Shown here piece after piece: positions 18,701 through 64,000 of a stretch of DNA of 64,000 nt. The DNA lies in NCBI GenBank assembly GCA_913050115.1, contig CAJWZU010000006.1, positions 1 through 64,000 on the forward strand. The letters run 5' to 3'. Positions within the stretch are counted from its first letter, which is position 1; every line of letters starts with the position of its first letter. Origin of the DNA: an uncultured Cellvibrionales bacterium (GTDB lineage Bacteria > Pseudomonadota > Gammaproteobacteria > Pseudomonadales > Cellvibrionaceae). A model generated the notes under the pieces. That model did no database searches. It saw only the letters and a list, made by a program, of their open reading frames with translations, and was not told the origin of the DNA. The position numbers were made by a program, and so were the translations under genes.

Positions 18701-18856
18701 CGATAGATCTCGTTGGGTGTTGTTAAAAGTACTTCTGCAGCGGTTTAAACAGTGCTGTCGATACAGGTGCAAATCAAGAGGGCGCGCATTATATGTTCTT
18801 GCAGCCCATTGTACAAAACCTGTTCGTTTTTTAAGCAAGTTTTTTTCACTGAAAAA

Positions 18857-19290
18857 TTAACTTTTACACATCAAATCTAATAAATAAGTATTTATATTAC
18901 TTATATATATATATATGTTTTTTATAGATGTAGTAATAAATAGGGGCCTTAAAATCTGTGCATAAACAAATATTTAACATACAAAACAATAACTTATAGC
19001 AAGTGTAAGCAGGCAAATAAACGCTTAGAAAGCTGCTCATTAGGTGGTAGTTAGCTGAGGATTAAAATGTGAATAACTTTCCCATATCGATGAAAGCATG
19101 GTTATTCACAATTAACTCCTCAGTATTTATAGAGCTTATTCAACTAGTTATTCACAGTGAAAATTCAAGCTCAGCTGATCGTTTGTTTTTCATACAGAAT
19201 ATTGCAGAAAATCAATAGGTTAGGGGATAAACCTGTGAATGAATGTGGATAACCTCTGCAACGGTTGTTTACAAAACATTTTATTCATAA
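18857..19290. other. Probable origin of replication (oriC) with DnaA boxes
   Basis: This non-coding gap between mnmG and mnmE carries six boxes fitting TTWTNCACA. They are TTTTACACA 18862-18870 (+), TTATGCACA 18957-18965 (-), TTATTCACA 19069-19077 (-), 19102-19110 (+) and 19148-19156 (+), and TTATCCACA 19244-19252 (-). One-mismatch boxes lie near 19234 and 19281. The third and fourth boxes sit in the arms of a 23-base inverted repeat (19055-19077 / 19101-19123, 20 of 23 matching). A very AT-rich stretch with a TA run (18878-18925) could be the unwinding element. Only one GATC was seen, so SeqA-type control is unlikely. A caution: mnmE to rpmH would run against the rightward fork. Confidence 0.7.
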
Positions 19291-19301
19291 ATAGCGGGTA
19301 T

Positions 19302-19340
19302 AAAAAAGCCCTCACCAACAAAAGTCGATGAGGGCTTTTT
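19302..19340 (-). terminator. Terminator of mnmE
   Basis: AAAAAAGCCCTCA pairs with TGAGGGCTTTTT across a 14-base loop. On the minus strand it lies 13 bases past the mnmE stop and ends in a T tract, separating the gene from the candidate origin. Confidence 0.88.
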
Positions 19341-19352
19341 ATTATTATTTAA

Positions 19353-20735
19353 TTACTTACCGATACAAAAACTAGAGAAAATACGACCCAATAGTTCATC
19401 TGGAGTAAATTCACCGGTGATTTCAGAGAGTGTATTTTGAGTTTGACGCAAATCTTCGGCTAACAGTTCGCCTGCGGCTGCAGACTCTAATTGCGCTTGC
19501 CCGGCATCCAGTAAATCGCTGGCGCGTTGCAGTGCATCCAGGTGGCGTCTGCGGGCCGTAAATTGGCCTTCCCCTGCATCGCTAAAGCCCATAACCTGTT
19601 TCAAGTGTTGCTTTAAATCATCAAGGCCTGCGCCATCACTGGCACTAATACCAATACAGAGTGGGTCGGTATTTTCTATGCCTGCCTTCTCACCAGTTAA
19701 ATCGACCTTATTGCGGATGAGTGTGACCTTGTTGCTGTCGGGTAGGTTGTCTATAAAGGTGGGCCAAATGTCATGCACATCGCGTGTGCTTGTTGTCGTT
19801 GCATCGACTAACAATAGTATACGATCGGCCTCGGCTATTTCATTAAGGGCTCGCTCAATGCCTATTTTCTCGACTTGATCGGGATTATCTCTAAGCCCTG
19901 CTGTATCGATAATATGCAGGGGCATACCGTCGATGTGAATGTGCTCGCGCAAGACATCTCGAGTAGTGCCCTCGATGTCGGTGACGATGGCACTGTCGCG
20001 CCCGACAAGAGCGTTCAATAGGCTCGATTTACCCGCATTGGGGCGGCCAGCGATAACGACCTTCATGCCGTCGCGCATGAGTAGCCCCTGCCTTGCCTCT
20101 GCAAATACAGCCGCCAACTTGGTGATGATGTTATTGAGGTCAGCGCTTACTTTGCCATCACCGAGAAAATCGATTTCTTCTTCGGGAAAGTCTATGGCGG
20201 CCTCAACATAGATACGCAGGTGGATTAGTGCTTCAACTAAATCACCAATACGCTCAGAGAAGACTCCCTGTAATGAATTGAGCGCGTTGCGAGCCGCCTG
20301 CTCTGAGCTGGCATCAATCAGGTCGGCAATAGCTTCAGCCTGGGTTAGGTCGAGTTTGTCGTTCATAAAGGCGCGCTCGGAGAACTCGCCTGGTCGCGCC
20401 ATACGCACGCCTTTATTGGTAATTTCACGCATCAGCATATCGAGAATAACAGGCCCGCCATGGCCCTGAAACTCGACTACATCTTCGCCGGTAAATGAGT
20501 GAGGGTTCGGAAAGAAGAGTGCTATACCTTCGTCTATCACCTTATTTTTGCTGTCGAGGTTTTGTGAGGAATAGAAGGGCCCGTAGTGGGCGTAGCGAGG
20601 TTTTAGCTCTCGTTGGCATAGAGCTTGGCCAATGGCGTAGGCTTTAGGGCCTGAGACTCGAACAATTCCTACACCACCGCGACCGCTGGGTGTGGCAATG
20701 GCGGCAATGGTGTCGTTGTTAGTCAGCACGGTCAT
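19353..20735 (-). CDS. mnmE: tRNA modification GTPase
   Basis: MnmE (TrmE) is the GTPase partner of MnmG in wobble-uridine modification. The 460-residue length is normal. The N-terminal tetrahydrofolate-binding domain ([35 protein letters not shown]) is followed by a G domain with [29 protein letters not shown] and NKVDL. The C-terminus ends in FCIGK, holding the conserved functional cysteine. It is a single-gene unit bounded by hairpins on both sides. Confidence 0.97.
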
Positions 20736-23905: not shown

Positions 23906-24019
23906 TTATACACATGCGCTGTTTTGTATAGTCTTTGGTTGCCCCTGTTATTTGTAGTCTTATTTGAGCGTTTCACAGAAATTATCCAATGGTATATCTT
24001 GGGTAAAAGTTGTGGATAA
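23906..24019. promoter_or_regulatory. DnaA boxes in the rpmH-dnaA gap
   Basis: Two consensus boxes are present, TTATACACA at 23906-23914 (+) and TTATCCACA at 24011-24019 (-), with a weaker TTATCCAAT near 23983. The gap 23724-24161 has no gene. The boxes suit autoregulation of dnaA. In Pseudomonas this gap is itself the origin, so it is the second oriC candidate. Confidence 0.7.
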
Positions 24020-26991: not shown

Positions 26992-28092
26992 ATGACCATC
27001 TCCCATCTATCTATTACTCAATTGCGCAATATTGTATCGGCCGAGCTGTCGCCATCCTCGGGTGTTAACCTTATTTACGGCGCTAATGGCAGTGGTAAAA
27101 CTAGTACATTAGAAGCGCTTAGCGTGCTCGGTATGGGACGGTCCTTTCGTAGCCATAAATATAAAACTCTTATTAATAATGACCATGATTCGCTGACGGT
27201 TTTTGCGCGCCTCCAGCATGCTGGTGGTGCTGTCGTTCCTATAGGGGTAAGTCGTCACCGGGGTGGTGATTCAACTTTTCGTGTTGCAGGTGACAATGTT
27301 CATTCAGCTGCGGCATTGGCTGCCCATTTACCTATACAAGTCATCAATTCCCACACTTACGAATTGTTAGAAGGTTCACCAAAATCGCGTAGACAATTTA
27401 TAGATTGGTTAGTGTTTCACGTGGAACCTCAGTTTTATCCATTGTGGAAGGCCGCGCAGCGTTGTCTAAAACACCGCAATAGTCTGCTTCGGCGTGATAG
27501 AATAGACCGTTTAGAGGTTACCCCTTGGGATGTAGAGCTTTGTTCTCTAACTGAGGCGATAGAGGGTTACAGGCAGCAGACACTGGACTTGTTTCAAACT
27601 GAATTCAAGCAATTGGTGTCCGAGTTTGTTGCTGTTGATGGCTTAACTTTAGGTTATCAACGTGGTTGGGATGCCGATCAAGACTATGCCCAGCATTTAC
27701 AGCAGAGTTTTGAGCGCGATTGTCAGAGTGGCTATACCCGCGCTGGTGTTCATAGGGCTGATATAAGAATAAAAGTAGGTCGCCAGTTAGCGGTTGATAT
27801 TCTCTCGCGAGGCCAGCAAAAGCTTTTGGTTTGTGCAATGAAGATTGCTCAGGGCTTGGTTTTTTATCGCCAAACAGGGCGCCGTTGTATATATTTGGTC
27901 GACGATTTACCCGCTGAGCTAGACCCTCAGTACCGCCAATTACTGGCGCACTGGCTGCACAAAATTGGTAGCCAGGTGTTTGTAACCGGTGTCGAAAAAG
28001 AGACTTTACTGTCCAGTTGGCAGAAGATTACCGATGTGGATAAACGAGTGTTTCACGTGGAACACGGCACGGTTACACAAATAGACGTGTAA
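26992..28092 (+). CDS. recF: DNA replication and repair protein RecF
   Basis: RecF is an SMC-like ATPase that helps load RecA at gapped DNA. From the ATG at 26992 (MTISHLSITQLRNI) it has 366 residues. Walker A is YGANGSGKTSTLEAL, the ABC signature is LSRGQQKLLVCAMKIAQ and Walker B is IYLVDDLPAELD. An upstream TTG at 26962 would overlap the terminator tail and is not supported. Two parS-like sites lie within the coding sequence. Confidence 0.96.
   Translation: MTISHLSITQLRNIVSAELSPSSGVNLIYGANGSGKTSTLEALSVLGMGRSFRSHKYKTLINNDHDSLTVFARLQHAGGAVVPIGVSRHRGGDSTFRVAGDNVHSAAALAAHLPIQVINSHTYELLEGSPKSRRQFIDWLVFHVEPQFYPLWKAAQRCLKHRNSLLRRDRIDRLEVTPWDVELCSLTEAIEGYRQQTLDLFQTEFKQLVSEFVAVDGLTLGYQRGWDADQDYAQHLQQSFERDCQSGYTRAGVHRADIRIKVGRQLAVDILSRGQQKLLVCAMKIAQGLVFYRQTGRRCIYLVDDLPAELDPQYRQLLAHWLHKIGSQVFVTGVEKETLLSSWQKITDVDKRVFHVEHGTVTQIDV
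27413..27428. other. parS centromere site 1 (in recF)
   Basis: TGTTTCACGTGGAACC differs at only two positions from the widely conserved ParB-binding palindrome TGTTTCACGTGAAACA. It keeps the CACGTG core. It lies inside recF, about 8 kb from the candidate origin and 12 kb from parB. Confidence 0.85.
28049..28064. other. parS centromere site 2 (in recF)
   Basis: TGTTTCACGTGGAACA differs at one position from the consensus parS palindrome. It lies in the 3' end of recF, 636 bases from site 1. These are the only two strong matches seen in the window. Confidence 0.88.
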
Positions 28093-36922: not shown

Positions 36923-37345
36923 CTATTCGAAATCTACTTCACGAACGCCCTTCTTCAACCGACACGCTTCAACCTGTGTACGCAGTTTCTCGCGTAACTC
37001 TTCACCATTAGGGATAGCCCTGAGAACTACCTGTGGATCAGATTTATCGGAAGTTTGCAGAACAATGTTGCCCAAAGAGAATAATCTGAGGAAAAAAGGC
37101 TGTTCATATTTGTAGTCACGAACACGATAAAGTTCTAACTCGTCAGTTTTTTTATTGAGGACTCCATGGCGTGTTGTAAGGCGCTCTGTAGTCAGTTCAT
37201 ATTTAGTGTTTTTTATGACCAGCCACTTCCAAAGAATAATGAGCAGCGGGATTACCAGCCAAAAAAGTAGCCCCAACAGTATGAATGTACCAAGATTTAC
37301 CACTTGGGATGGGTTTCCAAACCAGACTTCTTTTTCTTCTGACAT
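36923..37345 (-). CDS. Membrane-anchored bacterial PH domain protein (YdbS/YvbH-like, DUF304 type)
   Basis: This 140-residue protein starts at the ATG at 37345 with a strong AAGGAG. Short N-terminal residues EVWFGNPSQVV are followed by two hydrophobic stretches (GTFILLGLLFWLVIPLLIILW) and then a bacterial PH fold, KNTKYELTTERLTTRHGVL, then LELYRVRDYKYEQPFFLRL. The function of such domains in bacteria is poorly known. A membrane-bound scaffold role is possible. It is followed by a small membrane protein in the same unit. Confidence 0.82.
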   Translation of the reverse strand: MSEEKEVWFGNPSQVVNLGTFILLGLLFWLVIPLLIILWKWLVIKNTKYELTTERLTTRHGVLNKKTDELELYRVRDYKYEQPFFLRLFSLGNIVLQTSDKSDPQVVLRAIPNGEELREKLRTQVEACRLKKGVREVDFE

Positions 37346-37606
37346 AACTATCTCCTTTTGAGAGTGAAATTCATTACTCAATGATCCGTTATCACTGACA
37401 GTTCAATGCTTAAAGTTGGTACATTAAACACGGCTATCTTTTAATCGGGTGACAGCCCTCTGTGGTGTGCTAGCCGTTTGCGCATATTAGACGGTAACCA
37501 CTAGCGAATGGCAAGGGCATAGCCGCCAGGATTTGCTCGGCTAAAGTTGCTCGAACACTACAATTCGGCGAACTGAAATTACCTAAAGTCGATGTGATGT
37601 GTAGTG

Positions 37607-37957
37607 TTACAGGCTCGACAACTGTAAATCTAACAGGAGTAGCGTGCAGATTGCTGATACACCAACCCCACAGCCAAGACCTAAGGTCATGGCCTGTGTT
37701 TGCCAGCGAGTAAAAATTTTGGATTTAAGTATCACTGGTGCTAATGATGCAGAGCTTGCAGCAATTCCCGCGATAAATAGGACTATAGCTGCTTGAAAAC
37801 TTGTGCCGTCGCCTTTTAGCTGAACACAAATAACAAGAGCGATGGCTGACATTGAAATAATAGCCATCTCGATGAAATGATATATACGCTTCCAGAGCCT
37901 TTGCTCTTTTTGACAGTACCACTGTATTTTTTCAGATAATGACTTCAAAGACCTCAC
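37607..37957 (-). CDS. Small membrane protein, possibly SLATT/DUF4231-like
   Basis: This 116-residue protein has an N-terminal charged helix (SEKIQWYCQKEQRLWKRIYHF) followed by hydrophobic helices at about 30-45, 55-75 and 90-113. The layout, an amphipathic helix then paired membrane helices, is like SLATT or DUF4231 proteins, but I cannot confirm family membership. The start is a GTG without a good ribosome site, so the true N-terminus is uncertain. Confidence 0.55.
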   Translation of the reverse strand: MRSLKSLSEKIQWYCQKEQRLWKRIYHFIEMAIISMSAIALVICVQLKGDGTSFQAAIVLFIAGIAASSASLAPVILKSKIFTRWQTQAMTLGLGCGVGVSAICTLLLLDLQLSSL

Positions 37958-38071
37958 CGACTGTTGGTTTAATGAATGTAAATAACGCTTTATTAAGCAG
38001 CGCGTAACAGCTTGCTAAAATGGCAAGGAACCAACGCTAATAAATAGCTAGCATTTGCTTAAATAACTTTC

Positions 38072-38488
38072 TTAAGCAATAGATATACCACATAAAATAA
38101 TCAGTAGAATATTAGCGATTAGTGAAATTAAATAAAAATAACTTCTTGGGCTAGGATTTTTTTCTGTCGATATTGAATAATATAAAACCATATGAATTAT
38201 TCTTGATACTGCCATGATCCAGATTATTAAGCCTGTCCAAAATGCATCCACCCCAACAAAGATTGCTAAAAAAGAAGCCCCAAGCATTACGGCAATATTC
38301 TCTAATGAATTAGCAAAGGTTCTATTGGCGCGAAAAACAAATGATGAATGAGTTAAAGATATATCAATTTTACCCGGTATAGCGCCTGGTTCAGCAGCCT
38401 TAGATATAGCGGCTATTAGACTTTGAATTACAACCGTTAATATGATTATCAATATACCTAATAAAGCGACTGTCTGTGTGTCAAACAT
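38072..38488 (-). CDS. MAPEG family membrane protein
   Basis: This 138-residue protein has four membrane helices. FRANRTFANSLENIAVMLGA is the MAPEG signature region, with the conserved Arg, Asn and Glu-Asn. Human relatives act on glutathione conjugates and eicosanoids, while most bacterial members have no known substrate. The coding DNA is more AT-rich than that of its neighbours. Confidence 0.82.
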   Translation of the reverse strand: MFDTQTVALLGILIIILTVVIQSLIAAISKAAEPGAIPGKIDISLTHSSFVFRANRTFANSLENIAVMLGASFLAIFVGVDAFWTGLIIWIMAVSRIIHMVLYYSISTEKNPSPRSYFYLISLIANILLIILCGISIA

Positions 38489-39156
38489 AAAAAATATACT
38501 CCAATAAATTTTGCATGGGTGTTAATTGCAGACATAAATCATCAATAATAGACTTAATTATTAGTAGGTAGTTATACGATACCCTGACAATTAATGCGCT
38601 AAAATAATTGTAACAGTAGTCATAATTTTTGAAGTATTAAAAAATCGAGAAAAATAATGAGTGTTTTGCGAGGGTGCTCCTTATTTTTTATTCTCATTAC
38701 TACGGTCTTATTTTATTGTAGTTACTAATATTATTTAGTTTAAAAAATTAACTGTGTTTGCATTGGCCCCTGAATTAACTTTTTTACCGAATTTGTTACA
38801 AAGGTTTCTAACACCTTTACTATTAGAGCTGCCATGGAAGATTTTTTAAGTACCTTGATTAGCTTTTATAAAATTTGGAGTTAGCGATCAATAAGCGAAT
38901 ATTATCTTTGCAGACTGAGGCAGTTGAGCGCACCCGTCGGGACGACTACTGGGACGTAAGAGGTAGAGCAAGATAAAGGCAGTGGCCGAGCATACAAGTA
39001 AATGTGTTAACTCACGGCTGAAGATCATAATTGTCATCAGCACACACTCTTCATTTTTAATATAACTACTTATCTTTTGACAGCGTACGGAAAAACCCGC
39101 TTACCTCAATCATCTGCCAGCTTGCACTTATAAACGGCGATTGCTTTATATGTGCC
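38489..39156. other. 668-base gap without a convincing gene
   Basis: This is AT-rich sequence with short open frames only. A 23-codon frame at 38657-38728 (+) encodes a hydrophobic peptide (FFILITTVLFYC) but has only a weak GAGAA upstream. Another short frame near 38880-38990 has no start signal. The base composition differs from flanking genes and suggests relic or acquired DNA. Confidence 0.4.
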
Positions 39157-40605
39157 TTATTTGCGCCAAAACATCGGCGTAAACAGCACCAGTAAGGTAA
39201 ACACTTCTAAGCGCCCCAACAACATGGCAAAACACAACACCCATTTAGCAAAGTCATTGATATTGCCATAGTGAGCGGCAACCTGGCCCATACCAGGGCC
39301 TAGGTTATTAATACAGGCACCGACCGCTGAATAGGCGGTGATGAAATCGAGACCCGAGGCTAGCAATAACATAAACATGGCCACAAAAGCCAAAAGGTAA
39401 ACTGAGAAAAATCCCCACACTGATTCCAGTACTCGATCGGACACTGTGGTGCTGCCGATCTTTATCGGAAAGACGGCGTTGGGGTGAATGAGGCGATATA
39501 TCTCGCGCATGCCCTGCTTGTAAATGAGCAGCACGCGAATGACTTTCATGCCGCCAGCCGTCGAGCCAGCACAGCCCCCCATAAAAGCAAACAGGAATAG
39601 CATAAAGGGTAAAAATGTCGGCCAAAGACTAAAGTCTGCGGTGCCAAAGCCGGTGGTGGTCAGAATGGAAACCAGCTCAAAGCTACCATGCAGTAGGCTG
39701 TCACTTAAGTTGTAGGTATTGCTCCAGTAAAGATAGCTCACAGTAATCACTATCCCTACGGCGATCCAGCCGAGATAAAAACGGCATTCGGGGTCTCGTA
39801 AATAATTACGCAAGCTTTTGTCGTTCCAGCCTAAAAAATGTAGGGCAAAATTGATACCCGCCACTATCATAAAAAAAGTACAAATGATCGAAATGGTGGG
39901 GCTGTCGAAATAGCCAATGCTGGCATCGTGAGTGGAAAAACCGCCAATGGCGACGGTGGAAAAAGCATGACCGACGGCGTCAAAGGTAGACATACCGGCT
40001 AGCCAATAGGCGAATCCGCAGATGACGGTGAGGGCCAAATACATCAAGAACAGCGCTTTGGCGGTCTCGGTGATGCGTGGTGTTAACTTCGAATCTTTAA
40101 CGGGCCCAGGAGTCTCCGCACGATATAACTGCATGCCACCGATACCGAGCATCGGCAGTATCGCCACGGCGATAACAATAATACCGATACCGCCCAGCCA
40201 TTGTAGTTGTTGGCGATAGTAGAGAATGGATTTGGGCAGTATATCCAACCCTGTGATCACTGTGGCCCCAGTAGTGGTGAGGCCAGATAGCGATTCAAAC
40301 AGGGCATCGGTGAACGATAAACTGAGGCTGTTGGACAATAGAAAAGGAAGAGATCCGAACAGGCCTAGTACTGTCCAGAAAAGTGCAGTCACCAAAAACC
40401 CGTCGCGAGTACGCAGATCACCGCGGTGGTTATGGACTGGAAACCATGATGCTAAACCGGTACTAAAGGTAATGGCAAAAGCCAGTAAAAAGGCGAGATG
40501 ATTAGCGTCTGCGTACCAAATAGACACTAAAATTGGTGGAAATAGGGTCAGGCTGAACAGCATTAAGAGTATGCCGAGAACCTTGGCGATAATAGCAAAG
40601 TGCAT
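39157..40605 (-). CDS. trkH: Trk potassium uptake channel subunit TrkH
   Basis: This 482-residue integral membrane protein carries K+ through four pore-loop repeats. Selectivity-filter segments are TTTGATVITG, STVAIGGFSTHD, TTTGFGTADFS and INNLGPGMGQV. AFMGGCAGSTAGGMKVIR is the gating-loop region. It lies 28 bases behind trkA, whose RCK protein gates it. Confidence 0.95.
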   Translation of the reverse strand: MHFAIIAKVLGILLMLFSLTLFPPILVSIWYADANHLAFLLAFAITFSTGLASWFPVHNHRGDLRTRDGFLVTALFWTVLGLFGSLPFLLSNSLSLSFTDALFESLSGLTTTGATVITGLDILPKSILYYRQQLQWLGGIGIIVIAVAILPMLGIGGMQLYRAETPGPVKDSKLTPRITETAKALFLMYLALTVICGFAYWLAGMSTFDAVGHAFSTVAIGGFSTHDASIGYFDSPTISIICTFFMIVAGINFALHFLGWNDKSLRNYLRDPECRFYLGWIAVGIVITVSYLYWSNTYNLSDSLLHGSFELVSILTTTGFGTADFSLWPTFLPFMLFLFAFMGGCAGSTAGGMKVIRVLLIYKQGMREIYRLIHPNAVFPIKIGSTTVSDRVLESVWGFFSVYLLAFVAMFMLLLASGLDFITAYSAVGACINNLGPGMGQVAAHYGNINDFAKWVLCFAMLLGRLEVFTLLVLFTPMFWRK

Positions 40606-55825: not shown

Positions 55826-57178
55826 TTATTCGGGGTTGATTCGCTCGCAGCGATTGTCGAACCAGCACTTGGTATGCTGAAAATATAGAAATACAGCGCC
55901 TAATAATAACCCACGGCTTAGCATGAAGGCGCAGAAGGCAAGCCATAATCCAAGGTTGTTATAATCACCTAAAATCCACCAAATCGGTATAAAAACGGCG
56001 AACACCGAAAATAGCATGGTATTTTGCATCGCCTTGGTCTTACCGGCACCAATGAATATGCCATCCAATTGATATCCCCAAACGCTCACTATGGGGAGTG
56101 CAATTATGAAGACGTAATAGCCTTGAGCGATGTCTATGATGGCTTGTATGCTGGTAAAAAATGCTAATAAGTAAGTTTCAAAAAGAGCAAAGGCGGTACT
56201 AAATAATAGCGCTGTTAAGAGCGCCCAGAAACTGGTGCTTTTACACGCGGCGATAAAATCAGTGTGGCTTTTGGCGCCAACTGCTTTGCCAATCATGGCT
56301 TCAGCGGCGTGAGCGAAGCCGTCTAGACCATATGATATTAGCAACAGTAATTGAAACAGCAGGGCATTGGCTGCGAGAGTTTCATCCCCTTGTCTGGCGC
56401 CTTGAGCGGTAAAAAATGCGAAAGTGAATAGTAAGCTGGCCGTGCGCACAAATAAGTGGCGATTAACTTGTAGGAGTTCAGCGTACTGATGGTATCGACC
56501 GAGAGCACGGTAGAGTCTTTTGCGTTCTTGTCCTGCTAATTGAGGACGTATAGTTTTCCATGTCAGGCCCAAGCCCAGTAGTAAACCGCCATATTCGGCT
56601 ATCACTGTGGCCAGTGCAGCGCCATCGCTGTTCATCTTTAGACCTATAATAAAAACAAAGTCGAGAATAATGTTTAGCGCATTTAAGCTGACTATAATCA
56701 GCAGCGGCGCGCGAGTATTTTGTTGACCAATAAACCAGCCCACTAAGGCAAATGTCATCAATGTGGCAGGTGCGCTGTAGATGCGTATTTGGCAATAGGA
56801 CTCAGCCAGTGCTGCCACGGCAGGCGATGCCCCAATAAGGTCTAATGCAAGCGGTATAAACGAACCTTGCAAGGTGAACAGTAATGTGGCCAAAATAAAC
56901 GCTAACAATAAACTTTGCAGCAGTAGAAGCGTGCTGGCATCCATGTCTGCACGGCCTATAGCGCGCGCCACTAAACTGGTAGTTCCCATACGCAGAAAAC
57001 CAAAGGCCCAGAATATAAACGTCAATATACTGGAACCGATCGCTACCGCGCCCAAGTAAATGGCGCTGTCGAGGTGACCGAGAATAGCCGTGTCGACTGC
57101 ACCCATTAAGGGCACGCTGATATTAGTGAGAATCATCGGCCATGCAAGGCGCCAAGTTTCTTGGTGGCTATTATTCAT
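55826..57178 (-). CDS. MATE family efflux transporter (DinF-like)
   Basis: This 450-residue, 12-helix exporter has two homologous halves. The first half holds LAWPMILTNISVPLMGAVDTAILGHL and GFLRMGTTSLVARAIG, which is the DinF branch. Family members exchange Na+ or H+ for drugs or metabolites. The start at 57178 (MNNSHQETW) is preferred over the upstream ATG at 57187. No regulator lies beside it. Confidence 0.9.
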   Translation of the reverse strand: MNNSHQETWRLAWPMILTNISVPLMGAVDTAILGHLDSAIYLGAVAIGSSILTFIFWAFGFLRMGTTSLVARAIGRADMDASTLLLLQSLLLAFILATLLFTLQGSFIPLALDLIGASPAVAALAESYCQIRIYSAPATLMTFALVGWFIGQQNTRAPLLIIVSLNALNIILDFVFIIGLKMNSDGAALATVIAEYGGLLLGLGLTWKTIRPQLAGQERKRLYRALGRYHQYAELLQVNRHLFVRTASLLFTFAFFTAQGARQGDETLAANALLFQLLLLISYGLDGFAHAAEAMIGKAVGAKSHTDFIAACKSTSFWALLTALLFSTAFALFETYLLAFFTSIQAIIDIAQGYYVFIIALPIVSVWGYQLDGIFIGAGKTKAMQNTMLFSVFAVFIPIWWILGDYNNLGLWLAFCAFMLSRGLLLGAVFLYFQHTKCWFDNRCERINPE

Positions 57179-57533
57179 TTTTATCATTTTTTGACAGCAG
57201 TTGGAAAGAATAAAAGTGCGCAGTCTAGTCGAAAAATATCAGCATAATCAATTGCTTATTCCTTGTGCTTAGACAACTGTTGTCGTGGCGTTGAATATAT
57301 TCCTTAATATCATTTAGTTTTTACAGATTGACCTTTTAATTCCGTAATTGCTTGCTAAGCTTAAGTAAATGGGGATTTTACGCTGAGTTAAGATTACGTC
57401 GGCCCAATATAGCAACTTTTTCTTTGCCATAATCGACAGATTAAAAGTAGTAGATAAAAACGATAATAGGCTGCTATTAAGGCTCAGTTATTAAGAGCTG
57501 AAAAAAGTGTCCACTACAAGGAGGCAATGCTAG
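57179..57533. other. Intergenic region between the MATE gene and coxB
   Basis: These 355 AT-rich bases separate two divergent genes and must hold both promoters. I could not fix convincing -35/-10 boxes. AAGGAGG, nine bases before the coxB ATG, is an unusually strong ribosome site. No other gene is seen. Confidence 0.6.
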
Positions 57534-58724
57534 ATGCAATTTTGCATGCTTTTGAACCGCGTATCTGGTTTTTTTCAACGGATAAAAAAACCTACGACCT
57601 GGAGCTTAGCCCTACTGTTCACTTTACTCAGTCAGCAGAGCTTCTCAGTTGATGTAGATCGCTGGCAGTATAATATGACTGAGGGTGTGACCCCAGTTAG
57701 CCGCGATGTTTATGGTTTGCACATGGATATTTTCTGGTGGTGCGTGGCCATTGCTGTGGTTGTTTTTGGTGTTATGTTCTACACCATGATCGTACATCGA
57801 AAGGCAAATGGCGCTAAAGCTTCAAACTTTCATGAAAGTACTCTGCTAGAAATTATTTGGACAGTAGTGCCATTCGTTATATTGATCATAATGGCGGTAC
57901 CTGCCACCAAAAGTCTGATAAATATTTATGATCACAAAGAAGGTGACATGGATATTTTAATCACCGGATATCAGTGGAAGTGGAAATACGATTACATCGG
58001 TAGTGACGTCAGTTATTTTAGTAGCCTCAGTACACCGCAAAATCAAATTAGAAATATGAGTACCAAGGGTGTTAACTATCTTTTAGAAGTTGATGAACCA
58101 TTGGTCATTCCGATTAAAAAGAAAATACGCTTTTTGATTACCGCTAACGATGTCATTCATAGTTGGTGGGTTCCAGATTTTGCCGTAAAGCGCGATGCAA
58201 TTCCCGGTTATATTAATGAAACTTGGGCATTTGTTGATGAACCCGGTACTTATCGAGGTCAGTGTGCTGAGTTATGCGGGAAAAATCATGGTTTTATGCC
58301 GATTGTGGTTGAGGCCTTACCGCAGGCTGAGTACGACACATGGTTGGCCGCTAAGCAAGCCGAGACACTTAAGCTACAAGAACTGACTAATCAAACGTTT
58401 ACCTTTGATGAGTTATATACGCAGGGAGAAACGGTATACAACAATGTTTGCGCGGCTTGTCATCAGGTTAATGGTGAGGGTATACCGCCGATGTTCCCAT
58501 CCATAGCCGGCAGCAAGATAGCAACAGGCGCTATAAATGGCCATCTCGATATAATCGTCAATGGATCAAAAAATAATCCAGCCATGCGCTCTTTTTCCGG
58601 TGAATTGTCAGAAGTGGATATTGCCGCCGTAATTACTTACCAGCGTAATAGTTGGGGTAATAATATGGGCGACTCTGTTCAGCCAATAGATATCTTGCGA
58701 TTTAAAGAGTCTGGAGGAGAGTAA
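57534..58724 (+). CDS. coxB: Cytochrome c oxidase subunit II with fused cytochrome c domain
   Basis: Subunit II passes electrons from cytochrome c to the core of an aa3-type oxidase. The 396 residues begin with a signal-like segment ending near residue 38, then two membrane helices (about 64-88 and 105-125). The periplasmic CuA domain has WWVPDFAVKRDAIPG and the CuA site CAELCGKNHGFM (about 244-255). A C-terminal class I cytochrome c domain has CAACH (about 306-310) and a later Met ligand region (NPAMRSF). The fusion makes this a caa3-like oxidase. Confidence 0.96.
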   Translation: MQFCMLLNRVSGFFQRIKKPTTWSLALLFTLLSQQSFSVDVDRWQYNMTEGVTPVSRDVYGLHMDIFWWCVAIAVVVFGVMFYTMIVHRKANGAKASNFHESTLLEIIWTVVPFVILIIMAVPATKSLINIYDHKEGDMDILITGYQWKWKYDYIGSDVSYFSSLSTPQNQIRNMSTKGVNYLLEVDEPLVIPIKKKIRFLITANDVIHSWWVPDFAVKRDAIPGYINETWAFVDEPGTYRGQCAELCGKNHGFMPIVVEALPQAEYDTWLAAKQAETLKLQELTNQTFTFDELYTQGETVYNNVCAACHQVNGEGIPPMFPSIAGSKIATGAINGHLDIIVNGSKNNPAMRSFSGELSEVDIAAVITYQRNSWGNNMGDSVQPIDILRFKESGGE

Positions 58725-58725
58725 T

Positions 58726-58839
58726 ATGCAGAATATTATATGGACTAATCCCACATTCATTACCTCATCTATTGATAAATATTTTAGTTATTCAATACAG
58801 GCCAGAATAGATATTTTAAAACTCAAGGAGGGTAAATAA
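58726..58839 (+). CDS. Possible 37-residue peptide between coxB and coxA
   Basis: An ATG one base after the coxB stop has GGAGGA about eight bases upstream inside the coxB end. It opens a 37-codon frame that fills the gap, with its stop one base before the coxA ATG. The coxA ribosome site AAGGAGG lies in the last codons. The peptide is polar and slightly basic with no clear membrane helix. It could be a real small subunit or a translation-coupling leader. I know no homologue. Confidence 0.35.
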   Translation: MQNIIWTNPTFITSSIDKYFSYSIQARIDILKLKEGK

Positions 58840-58840
58840 T

Positions 58841-60397
58841 ATGTCCGCACACCATGGGCCTGCTAAAGGCATTACCCGCTGGCTCTACACCACCAACCAC
58901 AAAGATATAGGTACATTATATCTATGGTTTAGTTTTGCCATGTTTTTACTTGGCGGTGCATTCGCATTAGTCATTCGCGCGGAACTTTTTGAGCCGGGTT
59001 TACAAATAATCGAACCAGAGTTTTTTAACCAAATGACCACCATGCATGGCTTAATCATGGTGTTTGGTGCGGTAATGCCCGCTTTTGTCGGCTTAGCCAA
59101 TTGGATGATTCCGTTAATGATTGGTGCGCCGGATATGGCGTTGCCACGTATGAATAACTGGAGCTTCTGGATCCTGCCCTTTGCATTTACCATGCTCACA
59201 TCTACGTTATTTATGGACGGTGGTGCCCCCAACTTTGGTTGGACATTCTATGCACCGCTATCTACTACCTATGCACCACCCAGTGTGACCTTCTTTATTT
59301 TTGCTGTACACATTATGGGAGCCAGCTCGATTATGGGTTCCATTAACATCATAGCCACTATATTAAACCTCCGAGCACCGGGCATGACCTTGATGAAAAT
59401 GCCGCTGTTTGTCTGGACCTGGTTAATTACCGCCTATTTATTGATTGCCGTAATGCCGGTGTTAGCCGGTGTAGTGACTATGATGCTAATGGACATTCAT
59501 TTTTCCACCAGCTTCTTTGATGCTGCCGGTGGTGGTGACCCAGTATTATTTCAGCATGTATTTTGGTTCTTCGGTCATCCCGAGGTTTATATTATGATTT
59601 TGCCCGCTTTTGGTGTGATAAGTGCAATTATTCCAACCTTTGCGCGCAAGCCACTATTTGGCTATGCCTCTATGGTGTACGCCACTTCATCTATTGCCTT
59701 CTTAAGCTTTATTGTCTGGGCGCATCATATGTTTACCGTCGGCATGCCGGTAGCGGGTGAGTTGTTTTTTATGTATGCCACTATGCTTATCGCTGTACCC
59801 ACCGGTGTAAAGGTCTTTAATTGGGTCACAACTATGTTCCGAGGTTCAATAACCTTTGAGACACCAATGCTGTTCTCGGTAGCCTTTGTCATTTTATTTA
59901 CTATTGGTGGATTTTCCGGATTGATGCTGGCTATTGCACCGGCAGATTTCCAGTATCACGATACCTATTTTGTCGTGGCACACTTTCATTATGTATTGGT
60001 ACCGGGTGCAATTTTCTCCATTATTGCTGCTGTTTATTATTGGCTGCCAAAGTGGTGCGGTAATATGTATAACGAAACTATGGGTAAGGCACATTTTTGG
60101 ACGGCTTTCGTCGGCTTGAATTTGACCTTTTTCCCTATGCATTTCTCTGGTCTTGCCGGTATGCCACGCCGAATTCCTGATTACAATATGATGTTTGCCG
60201 ATTGGAATATGTTGTCATCAATAGGCGCTTTCTTTTTTGGTGCCTCGCAGCTGTTATTCTTATTTAACGTAATAGCCACTATTCGCAATGGTCGTAAAGC
60301 TAGCGATCAGGTCTGGGAAAATCCAGAAGGTTTAGAGTGGACATTGCCGTCCCCTGCGCCTTATCACACCTTTACGGCGCCACCTAAAATTGGCTAG
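58841..60397 (+). CDS. coxA: Cytochrome c oxidase subunit I
   Basis: This 518-residue heme-copper catalytic subunit reduces oxygen to water and pumps protons. CuB and heme ligands lie in WFFGHPEVYIMILPAFG, VWAHHMFTVG and HDTYFVVAHFHYVL. The glutamate of the D-channel is in FGHPEVYI, and the K-channel lysine region TGVKVFNW is present. Twelve hydrophobic helices are evident. It overlaps ctaG by eight bases. Confidence 0.98.
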   Translation: MSAHHGPAKGITRWLYTTNHKDIGTLYLWFSFAMFLLGGAFALVIRAELFEPGLQIIEPEFFNQMTTMHGLIMVFGAVMPAFVGLANWMIPLMIGAPDMALPRMNNWSFWILPFAFTMLTSTLFMDGGAPNFGWTFYAPLSTTYAPPSVTFFIFAVHIMGASSIMGSINIIATILNLRAPGMTLMKMPLFVWTWLITAYLLIAVMPVLAGVVTMMLMDIHFSTSFFDAAGGGDPVLFQHVFWFFGHPEVYIMILPAFGVISAIIPTFARKPLFGYASMVYATSSIAFLSFIVWAHHMFTVGMPVAGELFFMYATMLIAVPTGVKVFNWVTTMFRGSITFETPMLFSVAFVILFTIGGFSGLMLAIAPADFQYHDTYFVVAHFHYVLVPGAIFSIIAAVYYWLPKWCGNMYNETMGKAHFWTAFVGLNLTFFPMHFSGLAGMPRRIPDYNMMFADWNMLSSIGAFFFGASQLLFLFNVIATIRNGRKASDQVWENPEGLEWTLPSPAPYHTFTAPPKIG

Positions 60398-60947
60398 TGC
60401 TGAGCAAGAAAGATCGACCGCAAAAATCGCACTAACGTTATGCATTGGTGCGGTGGCAATGTTTGTATTTGCTATTTTTATTATGCCGCCAATGTACGAC
60501 TTATTTTGCGACATTACAGGTCTAAACGGTAAAACCTCTGGACGTTATCAAACAATAAGCGCAGAGATAGATACTAGTCGTGAGATTAACGTGCAGTTTT
60601 TGGCGACTAATAATGCCAGTATGCCTTGGGAGTTTGGCCCAACAATGCAATCAATTAAGGTACATCCCGGAGCGGAAACGCTGGTAAATTATCAGGCCAA
60701 AAATACCACCAGTTATGACATGGTGGCACAGGCAGTACCGAGTCTAGTACCCTTTAAGGCGGCCGAATATTTTCATAAGACTGAATGTTTTTGTTTTAAC
60801 CGTCAGCCATTAGCCGCCGGAAAATCAGCCAAATTACCACTAAGCTTTATTGTTGATATTGGTATACCTAAACAGATACACACCATCACTTTATCCTATA
60901 CGCTTTTTGATATAACTGAACGCGCAACGGATTTAGCAAAAAATTAA
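60390..60947 (+). CDS. ctaG: Cytochrome c oxidase assembly protein CtaG/Cox11
   Basis: This is the copper chaperone for the CuB site of subunit I. The 185-residue protein has an N-terminal membrane anchor (about 15-35), the ITGLNGKT motif, and the copper-binding ECFCFNRQPLAAG near residue 130. The TTG start lies inside the coxA end, so it is translationally coupled. Confidence 0.95.
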   Translation: MASAEQERSTAKIALTLCIGAVAMFVFAIFIMPPMYDLFCDITGLNGKTSGRYQTISAEIDTSREINVQFLATNNASMPWEFGPTMQSIKVHPGAETLVNYQAKNTTSYDMVAQAVPSLVPFKAAEYFHKTECFCFNRQPLAAGKSAKLPLSFIVDIGIPKQIHTITLSYTLFDITERATDLAKN

Positions 60948-60957
60948 GGGAGCTGTT

Positions 60958-61878
60958 ATGTCAGCAGAAGACACCTACTATGTACCCGACCAGAGCAAGT
61001 TACCAATATTTGCCAGTATAGGTTTGTTTTTAACGGTCTTTGGCGCGGCTAATTGGCTTAATGGTAATGATTCTGGCCCAACACTTTTATATTGCGGCGG
61101 TTTGCTATTTGCCTTTGTACTTTGGACTTGGTTTGCCACAGTTATAAAGGAAAATAACGCAGGCATGAATAACGCTCAACTTAAACGGTCTTATGTTTGG
61201 GCAATGGGTTGGTTTATTTTTAGCGAATTTATGTTTTTTGCCGCTTTTTTTGGCGCGCTATTTTATATTAGAAACTTTGCTATGCCATGGCTGTCTGGTA
61301 CCGGTGATAGGGCAATTGAAACAGGGACAATACTCTGGCCAGGTTTTGAAAATGTATGGCCGGTAATGACTACTCCAGATATGGCCGCTAATGGTGCATC
61401 AGCAACAACCACTGGGCCTGATCTGAATATGAGTTTTGCTGAGGCAGAATCTATTTGGAATTGGTTGCCATTTTGGAATACTGCTGTGCTGTTGACCTCA
61501 AGTATTACTGTCCATTTTGCCCATACAGCAATTAAAAATAATCAGCGTAAACCATTTAACATTTGGCTGGGCATTACAGTCGCTTTAGGTTTTATTTTCT
61601 TAGTTTTACAAGTTGAAGAATATATAGAAGCCTATCAGCATATGGGCTTAACACTAGAATCTGGTATATACGGTTCTACCTTTTTCATGCTGACTGGTTT
61701 TCATGGGGCTCATGTAACTTTGGGTACACTGATGCTATTAGTGATGTGGCTGCGTTCAATACTGAAGGGCCATTTCAAACCTGATGATCAATTTGGCTTT
61801 GAAGCCGCTAGCTGGTATTGGCACTTTGTTGATGTCGTTTGGTTGGGTTTATTTATATTTGTGTATATCTTAGGGTAG
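60958..61878 (+). CDS. coxC: Cytochrome c oxidase subunit III
   Basis: This 306-residue membrane subunit stabilises the oxidase. Marks are WFIFSEFMFFAAFFGALFY, the central QVEEYIEA and TGFHGAHVTLGTLMLL then YWHFVDVVWLGLFIFVYI. A 65-residue insert rich in Gly, Ala and Thr follows the third helix, which is common in gammaproteobacterial CoxC. It lies 11 bases after ctaG, and the DUF2970 gene often found between them is absent. Confidence 0.97.
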   Translation: MSAEDTYYVPDQSKLPIFASIGLFLTVFGAANWLNGNDSGPTLLYCGGLLFAFVLWTWFATVIKENNAGMNNAQLKRSYVWAMGWFIFSEFMFFAAFFGALFYIRNFAMPWLSGTGDRAIETGTILWPGFENVWPVMTTPDMAANGASATTTGPDLNMSFAEAESIWNWLPFWNTAVLLTSSITVHFAHTAIKNNQRKPFNIWLGITVALGFIFLVLQVEEYIEAYQHMGLTLESGIYGSTFFMLTGFHGAHVTLGTLMLLVMWLRSILKGHFKPDDQFGFEAASWYWHFVDVVWLGLFIFVYILG

Positions 61879-61971
61879 AGTGAAATATAAATTTACCGCT
61901 ATAAATACAGTTTAAGGTTGTTGTGATATGAGTATTACGAGTTGGGACATTATATTTCTATAGAGGGTTTT

Positions 61972-62196
61972 TTATACTCGAGTATCCCACGGTGCAGTAC
62001 TGTGTAGTACACCCGTTTGAATGTAATAAAAAATTGTTGCCATTAGCAATGTTGCTAAAGTAATACGAATACCTAATGCATAAAGAGTGCGCTTAGATTG
62101 GCCTGCATCAATATCTTTTAATAAAAAGGTTAGACCGCTAGTTAATGATATAAGTACTAAGATAAAAAGTATTAAAATAATAATTTTAGGCCACAT
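61972..62196 (-). CDS. Twin-transmembrane DUF2909 protein
   Basis: This 74-residue protein has two membrane helices (about 4-25 and 42-62) separated by a charged loop (LKDIDAGQSKRTLYALGIRIT). This fits the DUF2909 family, which sits opposite in strand between coxC and SURF1 in Pseudomonas-type genomes, as here. From the ATG at 62196, with GAGAT upstream, it no longer overlaps the SURF1 gene. Its function is unknown and may be linked to oxidase assembly. Confidence 0.82.
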   Translation of the reverse strand: MWPKIIILILFILVLISLTSGLTFLLKDIDAGQSKRTLYALGIRITLATLLMATIFYYIQTGVLHSTAPWDTRV

Positions 62197-62225
62197 TAAA
62201 TTATCTCTATAAATTAGGGTCAGAT

Positions 62226-62972
62226 GTGAACGAAGTCTCCGCAAACAACCCCATCAGTTTAACACTGACACCCAATTATAAAACACTGTTATTGGCCATA
62301 CCGCTAATGCCTCTACTTATTTGGTTAGGATTTTGGCAACTAGACAGAGCGGAGCAAAAACAACAATTATTACAAAGTTATCAACAGCGTTTGGCTGAGT
62401 CCTCAATCCGGCTCCATGGTGATGAGATACTTCCAAATTACAGTCAAGTAGAAGTAGTAGGACAGTTTGATAATCGCTATCAATGGCTATTGGACAACAG
62501 AGTGTTAAAAGGTCGCGTCGGTTATGAGGTCATTAGTCCTTTTCGCTTGGATAACGGGGCTATTGTATTGATTAACCGAGGTTGGGTTCAGGCGCCGCGT
62601 TTGCGCAGTGATCTGCCAGTAATTACCAAGATCCAGGGTCGAGTGACATTGTTAGCCAGCGTATATCGGCCTAGTGTTAACCCTTTAGTAAACCAAAGCT
62701 CTAATCAAATACAGTGGCCGCACATAATTAATACAGTGTCATTTGATGAGATGGCATTACAGTCAAGTTTAACGCTAGCAGCAACTTATTTGCGTATAGA
62801 TGAACTCAGCTCAGCCGCCCTCACTACCGATTGGCGTGTTATCAACACCCAGCCAGAAAAACATACAGCGTATGCCGTACAGTGGTTTGCCATGGCGTTG
62901 GCATTGTGTGTTTTAACACTCATCAGTAATAGCAATGTATCTGTATATATGAAGGCAAGAAGTGATCAATAA
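62226..62972 (+). CDS. SURF1 family cytochrome oxidase assembly protein
   Basis: This 248-residue protein helps place heme A in subunit I. The N-terminal helix contains PLLIWLGFWQLDRAEQKQQLL, the SURF1 signature. The middle has GRVGYEVISPFRL and VLINRGWVQAPRLRSDLP. A second helix ends the protein (WFAMALALCVLTLIS). It starts at a GTG with AGGG six bases upstream. Confidence 0.94.
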   Translation: MNEVSANNPISLTLTPNYKTLLLAIPLMPLLIWLGFWQLDRAEQKQQLLQSYQQRLAESSIRLHGDEILPNYSQVEVVGQFDNRYQWLLDNRVLKGRVGYEVISPFRLDNGAIVLINRGWVQAPRLRSDLPVITKIQGRVTLLASVYRPSVNPLVNQSSNQIQWPHIINTVSFDEMALQSSLTLAATYLRIDELSSAALTTDWRVINTQPEKHTAYAVQWFAMALALCVLTLISNSNVSVYMKARSDQ

Positions 62973-62984
62973 AAGGAAATTGCT

Positions 62985-63644
62985 GTGAATATTAAAAATG
63001 CTAATGTTAAAGATACGATTATGCCGATCTCGGACCCAGTTCCTGTTAGTGCACTGCGCAGTCGTATCATGGGCATGCTTGTTCTCGCCATCATATTAGG
63101 CCCTATGATAGCGGCTTATATCATTTATAAATCGGGGGTTGGCATCCCTATCGGCACGATTAATAAAGGAGACTTACTGCCTCAAGCTCAATCAATTGCA
63201 GGGTTGTCAGTAGCAACACTTGCAGGCGAACCGCTAGATTTAATTAGCGCTAAAAAGCAATGGCGTCTGCTTATCCCTGTGCCAATAAACTGCACAAAAA
63301 CCTGCCTAAAAAATCTTTATACCACTCGACAAATGCATATACGCTTAGGTGAAAAAGCGCGTCGAGTCGAGCGTATTTTACTGTTACAGAATGCTCAGCA
63401 AATAAAGCCCATGCAGAAATTGTTAGGGCAAGATCACCCACGCTTAAAATGGGCTCTAGTCAATAAAGATGAACTGAAATATTTATTGCAATCCGAGGCT
63501 GAATTGAACAGAGATATTTTCCAGCGCTATTACCTAATGGATCAGCAAGGCTTCATTATGATGAGTTATAGCGACGTTCACACCGGTAACCAGCTGTTAA
63601 AAGATATAAAGCGTATGCTTAAATATTCCTACGAGGAGCGATGA
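62985..63644 (+). CDS. Membrane-anchored thioredoxin-fold protein of the cox locus (SCO-like)
   Basis: This 219-residue protein has one membrane helix (about 30-47) and a periplasmic domain. NCTKTCLKNLYTTRQMH carries a CxxxC pair like the copper site of SCO proteins, but the later SCO histidine is not obvious. A GTG start has AAAGGA eight bases upstream. Homologues of unknown function stand before heme A synthase in related genomes. A copper or redox role in oxidase assembly is inferred. Confidence 0.8.
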   Translation: MNIKNANVKDTIMPISDPVPVSALRSRIMGMLVLAIILGPMIAAYIIYKSGVGIPIGTINKGDLLPQAQSIAGLSVATLAGEPLDLISAKKQWRLLIPVPINCTKTCLKNLYTTRQMHIRLGEKARRVERILLLQNAQQIKPMQKLLGQDHPRLKWALVNKDELKYLLQSEAELNRDIFQRYYLMDQQGFIMMSYSDVHTGNQLLKDIKRMLKYSYEER

Positions 63645-64000
63645 TGCAGATCTTTGTAGGTTCGATGAAAACAATAGCCAGCACATGTTTTTTAGTAGCG
63701 ATAATGGTGATATTACTAGGCGCCTTTACCCGTTTAGCAGACGCAGGTCTTGGTTGCCCTGATTGGCCTACCTGTTATGGTCATTTATGGGTGCCTTCGA
63801 GCATCGCTGATATAGAACAAGCTAATCAAAAATTTTCTGATACTCCAGTAGAGACCGACAAAACATGGCCTGAGCAGATGCATCGTATTTTCGCCAGTGT
63901 GCTAGGTTTATTTATCATCGCTTTGGTCGTAGTGTGTTATAAAAATTCTCTACTCACTAAGCAACCATTAAAGTTATCGATATTGTTACTTGGGCTGGTT
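63644..64000 (+). CDS. ctaA: Heme A synthase CtaA/COX15 (partial, 3' end outside window)
   Basis: This is the first 119 residues of heme A synthase, which oxidises the methyl group of heme O. The start MQIFVGSMKTI is followed by a membrane helix and the family motif GAFTRLADAGLGCPDWPTCYG, then EQMHRIFASVLGLF with a heme-ligand His. The ATG at 63644 suits the GAGGAG site best. An adjacent ATG at 63641 overlaps the preceding stop. It runs off the right edge. Confidence 0.94.
   Translation, partial: MQIFVGSMKTIASTCFLVAIMVILLGAFTRLADAGLGCPDWPTCYGHLWVPSSIADIEQANQKFSDTPVETDKTWPEQMHRIFASVLGLFIIALVVVCYKNSLLTKQPLKLSILLLGLV

Follow-up and report, generated by a model that had tools for sequence, protein, structure and literature searches.

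The mnmG–mnmE gap and its elements

The window analysed here, a stretch of 64,000 nucleotides, was taken from contig 6 of a draft genome (100 contigs, 2.72 Mb, 97.85% complete) of an uncultured Cellvibrionales bacterium, belonging to the GTDB order Pseudomonadales and probably to Cellvibrionaceae. On its reverse strand, mnmG has its start codon at 18700 and mnmE its stop at 19353, leaving a non-coding gap (18701–19352), delimited by open reading frames, protein families and alignment, that very probably holds the replication origin. The identities of DnaA, MnmG and MnmE were confirmed by NCBIfam equivalog models, all above cut-offs.

The region 18857–19290 contains six matches to TTWTNCACA: TTTTACACA on the forward strand (18862–18870), reverse-strand boxes at 18957 and 19068, forward-strand boxes at 19102 and 19148–19156 (the latter, TTATTCACA, at a position kept in the family alignment), and a further reverse-strand box at 19244. 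Across 2,000 dinucleotide-preserving shuffles of this region the mean was 0.10 boxes and the maximum 2, and no 434-base stretch elsewhere in the window holds more than two. The six boxes reported by the first-pass annotation are therefore real and exceed chance expectation.

Duplex stability, computed from nearest-neighbour energies, was lowest over the entire window in the 50 bp at 18877–18926 (−43.3 kcal/mol, against −47.2 for the next, a mean of −68.0 and a standard deviation of 4.9). This segment, which lies 30 bp away from the 18957 box, is the candidate DNA unwinding element (DUE). A DnaA-trio run (AAT-AAA-TAG, three NAN units; 18935–18943, forward strand) is followed by a 13-nt spacer containing the GC cluster GGGCC and then by a box pointing back at the trios. 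By scanning and comparison with E. coli, this box, TTATGCACA (18957–18965, reverse strand), is the R1 equivalent directed at the DUE. Alignment and module search further located an IHF-like site, AACAATAACTTA (18985–18996, forward strand), 19 nt from the R1 equivalent as in E. coli; the IHF site beyond R1 is a perfect consensus in six aligned relatives (G007, G008, G025, G028, G035 and G036). Both this site and the one at 19210 were compared with the usual IHF consensus. Two caveats attach to the core: the R1 equivalent reads TTATGCACA rather than TTATCCACA, and the R1-side IHF site carries one core mismatch.

According to PMC8287927, a basal unwinding system comprises a DnaA box, a spacer of at most 16 nt (13 being commonest) and at least three NAN trios. 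The window shares this arrangement in full, with a box carrying one mismatch, a 13-nt spacer and the trios AAT, AAA and TAG, a weak test in AT-rich DNA, where trio runs commonly arise by chance and were never taken alone as proof. An E. coli-derived module of 23 positions with the spacing TTATTAG-13 nt-R1-19 nt-IHF gave a score of 22 for E. coli itself and of 20 for the window at 18937 (forward strand), the next best score on either strand of the 64 kb being 16. The two-part motif lacking the IHF site reaches the window score in 3 of 1,000 gap shuffles and matches 19048 as well as 18937, both in the mnmG–mnmE gap.

The 23-base inverted repeat highlighted at first pass exists, with arms at 19055–19077 (enclosing the reverse box at 19068–19076) and 19101–19123 (enclosing the forward box at 19102–19110), each 23 nt long, 87% complementary and 23 nt apart; the exact arrangement TGTGNATAA-(20 to 50)-TTATNCACA occurs once in the 2.72-Mb draft, at this repeat. 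Its supposed importance did not hold up across the family. The right arm corresponds to GTTATNCNC at the equivalent place in many aligned relatives, but among 16 family gaps the left arm is confined to the own genome, making the inverted repeat a local feature. Moreover, its boxes had been described as face to face and diverge when drawn as the usual 5'-TTATNCACA-3' arrows, and the TA-rich stretch assigned to its side adjoins the box at 18957 instead, ending about 130 bases before the repeat. An opposed box pair with a 15–45 nt spacer was rejected as a family signature, being present in 9 of 58 genomes: between mnmE and mnmG in G000, G006 and G047, adjoining dnaA in one of the three pairs of G043, and elsewhere in the remaining cases.

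Box scanning and alignment also defined a distal block (19210–19252, forward strand) composed of an IHF consensus, AATCAATAGGTTA (19210–19222), the element GGGGATAAACC, and tandem reverse boxes at 19234–19242 (one mismatch) and 19244–19252. Its core pattern was found in 11 of 37 own-family mnmG–mnmE stretches, own included, and also, reversed and separated from the rest of the block, in two rpmH–dnaA gaps (G030 and G032). Towards mnmG, a promoter-like pair, TGTACA-16-TATAAT (18788–18815, reverse strand), is directed away from the origin and coincides with conserved alignment columns; the promoter scan, which found one such pair against a shuffle mean of 3.8, proves nothing by itself. Towards mnmE, an inverted repeat search recovered a hairpin, GCCCTC/GAGGGC with flanking A/T runs (19303–19340, reverse strand), which is likely the mnmE terminator shielding the origin, and which was missing from the results of a consensus scan.

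The rpmH–dnaA gap, as originally stated, holds just two boxes, TTATACACA at 23906 (forward strand) and TTATCCACA at 24011 (reverse strand), together spanning 23906–24019. The DUE-R1-IHF module is absent from this gap in the window (best score 14 of 23), and the two boxes probably serve dnaA autoregulation rather than an origin.

Two observations concern the wider window. Two parS-like sites lie in recF, about 9 kb from the origin (28049–28064, one mismatch; 27413–27428, two mismatches); with the usual parS consensus, shuffles expect 0.44 sites and 9 of 100 shuffles reach two. The GC content is 0.38–0.44 at 37001–40000 and 56001–64000, against 0.44–0.52 across most of the window, and these low-GC stretches are possibly foreign DNA.

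GC skew and conservation among relatives

The choice between an origin near 19 kb and one near 24 kb had been proposed as a question for GC skew, and the cumulative minimum of the window falls at 18685, on the mnmG side. Since the own genome is a 100-contig draft, skew was followed in three single-contig relatives, with about 120 kb examined around the locus. The minimum lies within the mnmG–mnmE gap in G032 (903100), about 11 bp beyond the gap at the mnmG start in G007 (4561548), and 1.1 kb into mnmG in G028 (3964383), where a two-segment change point lies 3.4 kb further. Twenty 10-kb samples of G007 showed sign flips at 4.35–4.70 Mb and again at 2.10–2.35 Mb, near the antipode; twenty samples of G032 turned from plus to minus at 2.98–3.20 Mb, around the antipode, but from 1.00 to 1.45 Mb their signal was weak and its sign mixed.

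Skew at fourfold sites was compared among same-strand genes only, because coding-strand bias dominates. The forward-strand values in the window are +0.18 for mnmG, +0.52 for mnmE and +0.31 for yidC, and the means in relatives are 0.13 for mnmG (n = 47) and 0.28 for mnmE (n = 57). The same step from mnmG to mnmE recurs in nine Vibrionaceae loci (−0.03 to +0.08 and +0.13 to +0.48, respectively) and is mostly missing in Pseudomonas loci. Among loci with both gaps, the cumulative minimum was nearer the mnmG gap in all 32 own-family and all 9 Vibrionaceae loci, counting as nearer that gap the edge-of-locus minima of some short loci. Pseudomonas-type loci also had 18 of 23 minima nearer the mnmG gap, but their skew is flat and many minima lie far from either gap, so that it decides nothing.

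To compare elements across the family, we aligned 16 gaps that we had picked from the 32 own-family loci with a known gap. Conserved blocks were found at the mnmG promoter, at the trio-box-IHF core, at the box at 19148, and in the distal series GGGGATAAACC-TGTGAATGAA-TGTGGATAA. Box counts alone failed to separate mnmG–mnmE from rpmH–dnaA gaps across relatives, and we therefore turned to the module search. Scores of at least 17 were reached in 58 of 91 mnmG–mnmE gaps (named and unnamed loci, Vibrionaceae included) on the expected strand and in 0 of 91 on the other; the corresponding counts for rpmH–dnaA gaps were 20 and 2 of 128. Within the own family the module reached this score in 28 of 32 gaps, the misses being G003, G024, G033 and G034, with five further genomes whose mnmG lies beyond the retrieved stretch standing outside the count. 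No module of at least 17 was present on the expected strand in either gap in 27 of the 89 loci with both gaps, including 4 of the own family, and the two-part motif reaches 13 in three own-family rpmH–dnaA gaps. Comparison of MnmE, YidC and DnaA gave 81–83% identity to Microbulbifer for the own-family genomes G003 and G034, and, for order-level relatives, 82% to Marinobacter for G054 and 81% to Pseudomonas for G055; G043 was 76% identical to Endozoicomonas over the two proteins compared.

The control layer of enteric origins was sought in the same genomes. Two GATC sites occur in the 652 bases of 18701–19352 (shuffle mean 0.93). SeqA (PF03925) was found in 0 of 19 genomes, own included, with a profile that detects E. 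coli among 14 controls, and MethyltransfD12 (PF02086) had no match in the own genome and was present in 4 of the 19. These results fit the suggestion, originally made from the few GATC sites, that SeqA control is lacking. The own genome encodes four HU/IHF-type proteins, two of which score above the cut-offs of the IHF alpha and IHF beta models; a fourth, L275 (G000:C7:53685-53954), falls under the cut-offs of all HU/IHF models it matched. The E. coli ruler (DUE-13-R1-19-IHF) thus persists where neither SeqA nor a Dam-type methylase was found, indicating that ruler and methylation layer are separable.

Assignment of the origin and rival readings

Collectively, these results identify 18857–19290 as the predicted chromosomal oriC, with a probability of about 0.92. 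The assignment to the mnmG–mnmE gap, rather than to rpmH–dnaA, follows from the skew minimum at 18685 together with the minima of the three single-contig relatives, from the least stable DNA of the window and the E. coli DUE-R1-IHF geometry, both located there, and from the presence of the module in nearly all own-family gaps (28 of 32). The origin of a draft genome could in this way be located from sequence alone.

Among the closest known systems is E. coli oriC (NC_000913, 3925744-3925975), which reads TTATTAG-13-TGTGGATAA-19-ATCAACAACCTG with mnmG on the same side as in the window. Both origins lie upstream of mnmG, have their DUE at the end facing mnmG, follow the same TTATTAG-13-R1-19-IHF ruler (with a one-mismatch candidate as the IHF site of the window), and have R1 reversed relative to the distal boxes. 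In contrast to E. coli, the window has mnmE instead of mioC on the far side, differs from the E. coli-derived motif at three of 23 positions, and possesses an extra, second IHF-like site at 19210. It likewise departs from Dam/SeqA-controlled enteric origins, showing few GATC sites and no cluster of them, no mioC, and no detected SeqA or Dam-type methylase. The chromosome-1 origins of Vibrionaceae (Vibrio, Photobacterium and Enterovibrio; nine loci, scores 19–22) share gene side, module and polarity, but their mnmG–mnmE stretches span 905–7308 bases, some containing genes, and carry 14–58 GATC sites against 2 in the window.

The Pseudomonas origin, which is said to have been placed in the rpmH–dnaA gap by Yee and Smith in 1990, has DnaA boxes and the mnmE–dnaA gene order in common with the window, whose own rpmH–dnaA gap lacks the core module. 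The initial description of an enteric place within a Pseudomonas-like gene order was right, but 17 of 23 Pseudomonas-type loci also hold a more degenerate, related module in the mnmG gap. gammaBOriS uses motifs to class gammaproteobacterial origins (PMC7174414), PMC2099444 speaks of gidA, rpmH and dnaA as members of an ancestral origin-gene cluster, and two elements from P. aeruginosa are cited in PMC4403523. Origins on the gidA side are already in DoriC, and the oriC of the window is of a known kind. The finding is correct but mostly of an ordinary sort: the oriC is of enteric type, the lineage has a Pseudomonas-like gene order, and this genome shows no Dam/SeqA layer.

On this reading, DnaA would bind at 18957, the R1-like box, with cooperative binding to the boxes at 19102, 19148 and 19234–19252, while IHF would bend the DNA just past R1, and perhaps at 19210 also, joining the two arms. 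DnaA-ATP may then spread from R1 over the 13 nt onto the TAG trios, and melting of the TA-rich DUE (18877–18943) would follow on the side facing mnmG, the predicted place of helicase loading. Two forks would depart, one through mnmG-rsmG-parA-parB-atp and the other through mnmE-yidC-rpmH-dnaA. Such an origin would correspond to the E. coli/Vibrio type, stripped of GATC clusters, Dam and SeqA.

Binding, bending, melting and firing are thus predictions, and the elements, their spacing and conservation, the computed instability and the skew are what was observed; against these observations three other readings were weighed. An origin in the rpmH–dnaA gap as in Pseudomonas, with the mnmG gap reduced to a DnaA-binding regulatory or titration site, would accommodate the two perfect boxes there (mostly two or three in relatives), would make mnmE, yidC, rnpA and rpmH co-directional with the fork rather than head-on to it, and has a precedent in other lineages where the module is found in that gap. 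We nevertheless regard it as very unlikely, given that the window's rpmH–dnaA gap has no DUE-R1-IHF module, that the skew minimum lies 5 kb away and on the mnmG side in all three single-contig relatives, and that the window's DNA is least stable in the mnmG–mnmE gap.

It is also improbable that the origin is split, with the mnmG gap melting and the rpmH–dnaA boxes helping to load DnaA from 5 kb away. A pair of forward and reverse boxes upstream of dnaA does recur in many relatives, a pattern that autoregulation would equally need. Split origins exist elsewhere according to PMC4285127, which however describes a spacer that is usually dnaA, compared with five intervening genes here. E. coli offers evidence on both sides: PMC12000880 reports that in rnhAB mutants the oriC site contributes to the full induction of a dnaA-bordering initiation zone, yet oriC lies about 42 kb from dnaA and functions beside mnmG. 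That the box cluster only regulates mnmG transcription would agree with the conserved promoter-like pair in the gap, but the conserved elements extend more than 400 bases past this promoter, much further than an operator would, and fall where the skew turns, making this reading extremely unlikely. We therefore retain the chromosomal oriC at 18857–19290 as the preferred reading.

A possible two-address origin module

The distribution of the module across the order points to a broader scenario, in which a portable origin module would have two addresses within the order, one ahead of mnmG and one ahead of dnaA, with its orientation unchanged. Copying from one address to the other and subsequent loss of either copy would have shifted the origin while the genes stayed in place. 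Two-copy genomes (G063, G107 and, with degenerate pairs, 15 of 23 Pseudomonas-type loci) would represent intermediates, and the Pseudomonas rpmH–dnaA origin, which has been described as a class of its own, would descend from the enteric-type module. We give this scenario slightly less than an even chance. A literature search of titles and abstract openings returned no origin module common to, or moved between, both addresses, which is weak evidence of absence. The two-address pattern is the part most worth a specialist's time, and a comparison of genomes that carry the module at mnmG, at dnaA or at both addresses would allow origin relocation to be tested directly.

The short pattern WWWTAG-13-TGTGNATAA was present in 40 of 145 genomes of the order, compared with 26 of 145 for a reversed control tallied by hand. 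Alone it is weak and mildly enriched, and only the places of its matches are telling: 15 of 57 lie upstream of mnmG or dnaA in the expected orientation, just upstream of mnmG in G000, G040, G043, G049, G051, G063, G080 and G164, the dnaA-side matches being in G053, G054, G063, G069, G094, G107 and G131. In G064 the short pattern lies ahead of dnaA but is oppositely oriented, and G164, with the short pattern at mnmG, has the longer motif (score 18) solely at dnaA.

Loci in which mnmG was not found beside mnmE extend this distribution. With the longer motif, a dnaA-side module was detected in 16 of the 39 such loci with an rpmH–dnaA gap, whereas the other strand gave no case. Named Marinobacter and Halomonadaceae loci make up 13 of the 16; in most loci of these groups mnmG falls outside the retrieved stretch and may carry a second module. 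Named enteric loci in the same set have rpmH–dnaA scores below 17, as expected if their origin lies at the distant mnmG. Among the 23 Pseudomonas-type loci with both gaps (named loci among L111–L190), 15 have TGTGGATAR-26-TGTAC in each gap on one and the same strand; the other strand shows such a pair in none. This paired motif suggests copied modules, with convergence as the alternative.

The skew minimum mostly follows the module. Where the module is only at mnmG (score at least 18), the minimum is nearer mnmG in 48 of 49 loci; where it is only at dnaA, the minimum is nearer dnaA in both loci, with 38 loci having neither. In G069 the dnaA-side module (score 20) lies 2.3 kb from the cumulative minimum and mnmG 73 kb from it, and an additional place scoring 18 lies 11 kb upstream of mnmG. 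In G131 the distances are 1.3 kb and 37 kb, with a two-segment change point at 24.5 kb against a cumulative minimum at 12.6 kb. G039 has its module at mnmG and its minimum nearer dnaA.

Two genomes carry modules at both addresses. In G107 they lie 22 kb apart (G107:C1 4951449+ and 4973189+), and the skew minimum falls inside mnmG, yet the dnaA-side module is strong (score 21). In G063, which belongs to the same family as G131, the modules are at G063:C1 4583056+ and 20+; the minimum is 4.7 kb from the mnmG-side module, and the change point is 18.5 kb beyond dnaA.

Two further cases were observed. Five Marinomonas loci (L116, L145, L146, L156 and L166) have six to seven boxes in the rpmH–dnaA gap, yet a skew minimum nearer mnmG. 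In G065, a TATTAG-13-box match (G065:C3:83465-83492) lies off the contig bearing mnmG and dnaA, and the longer motif scores just 17.
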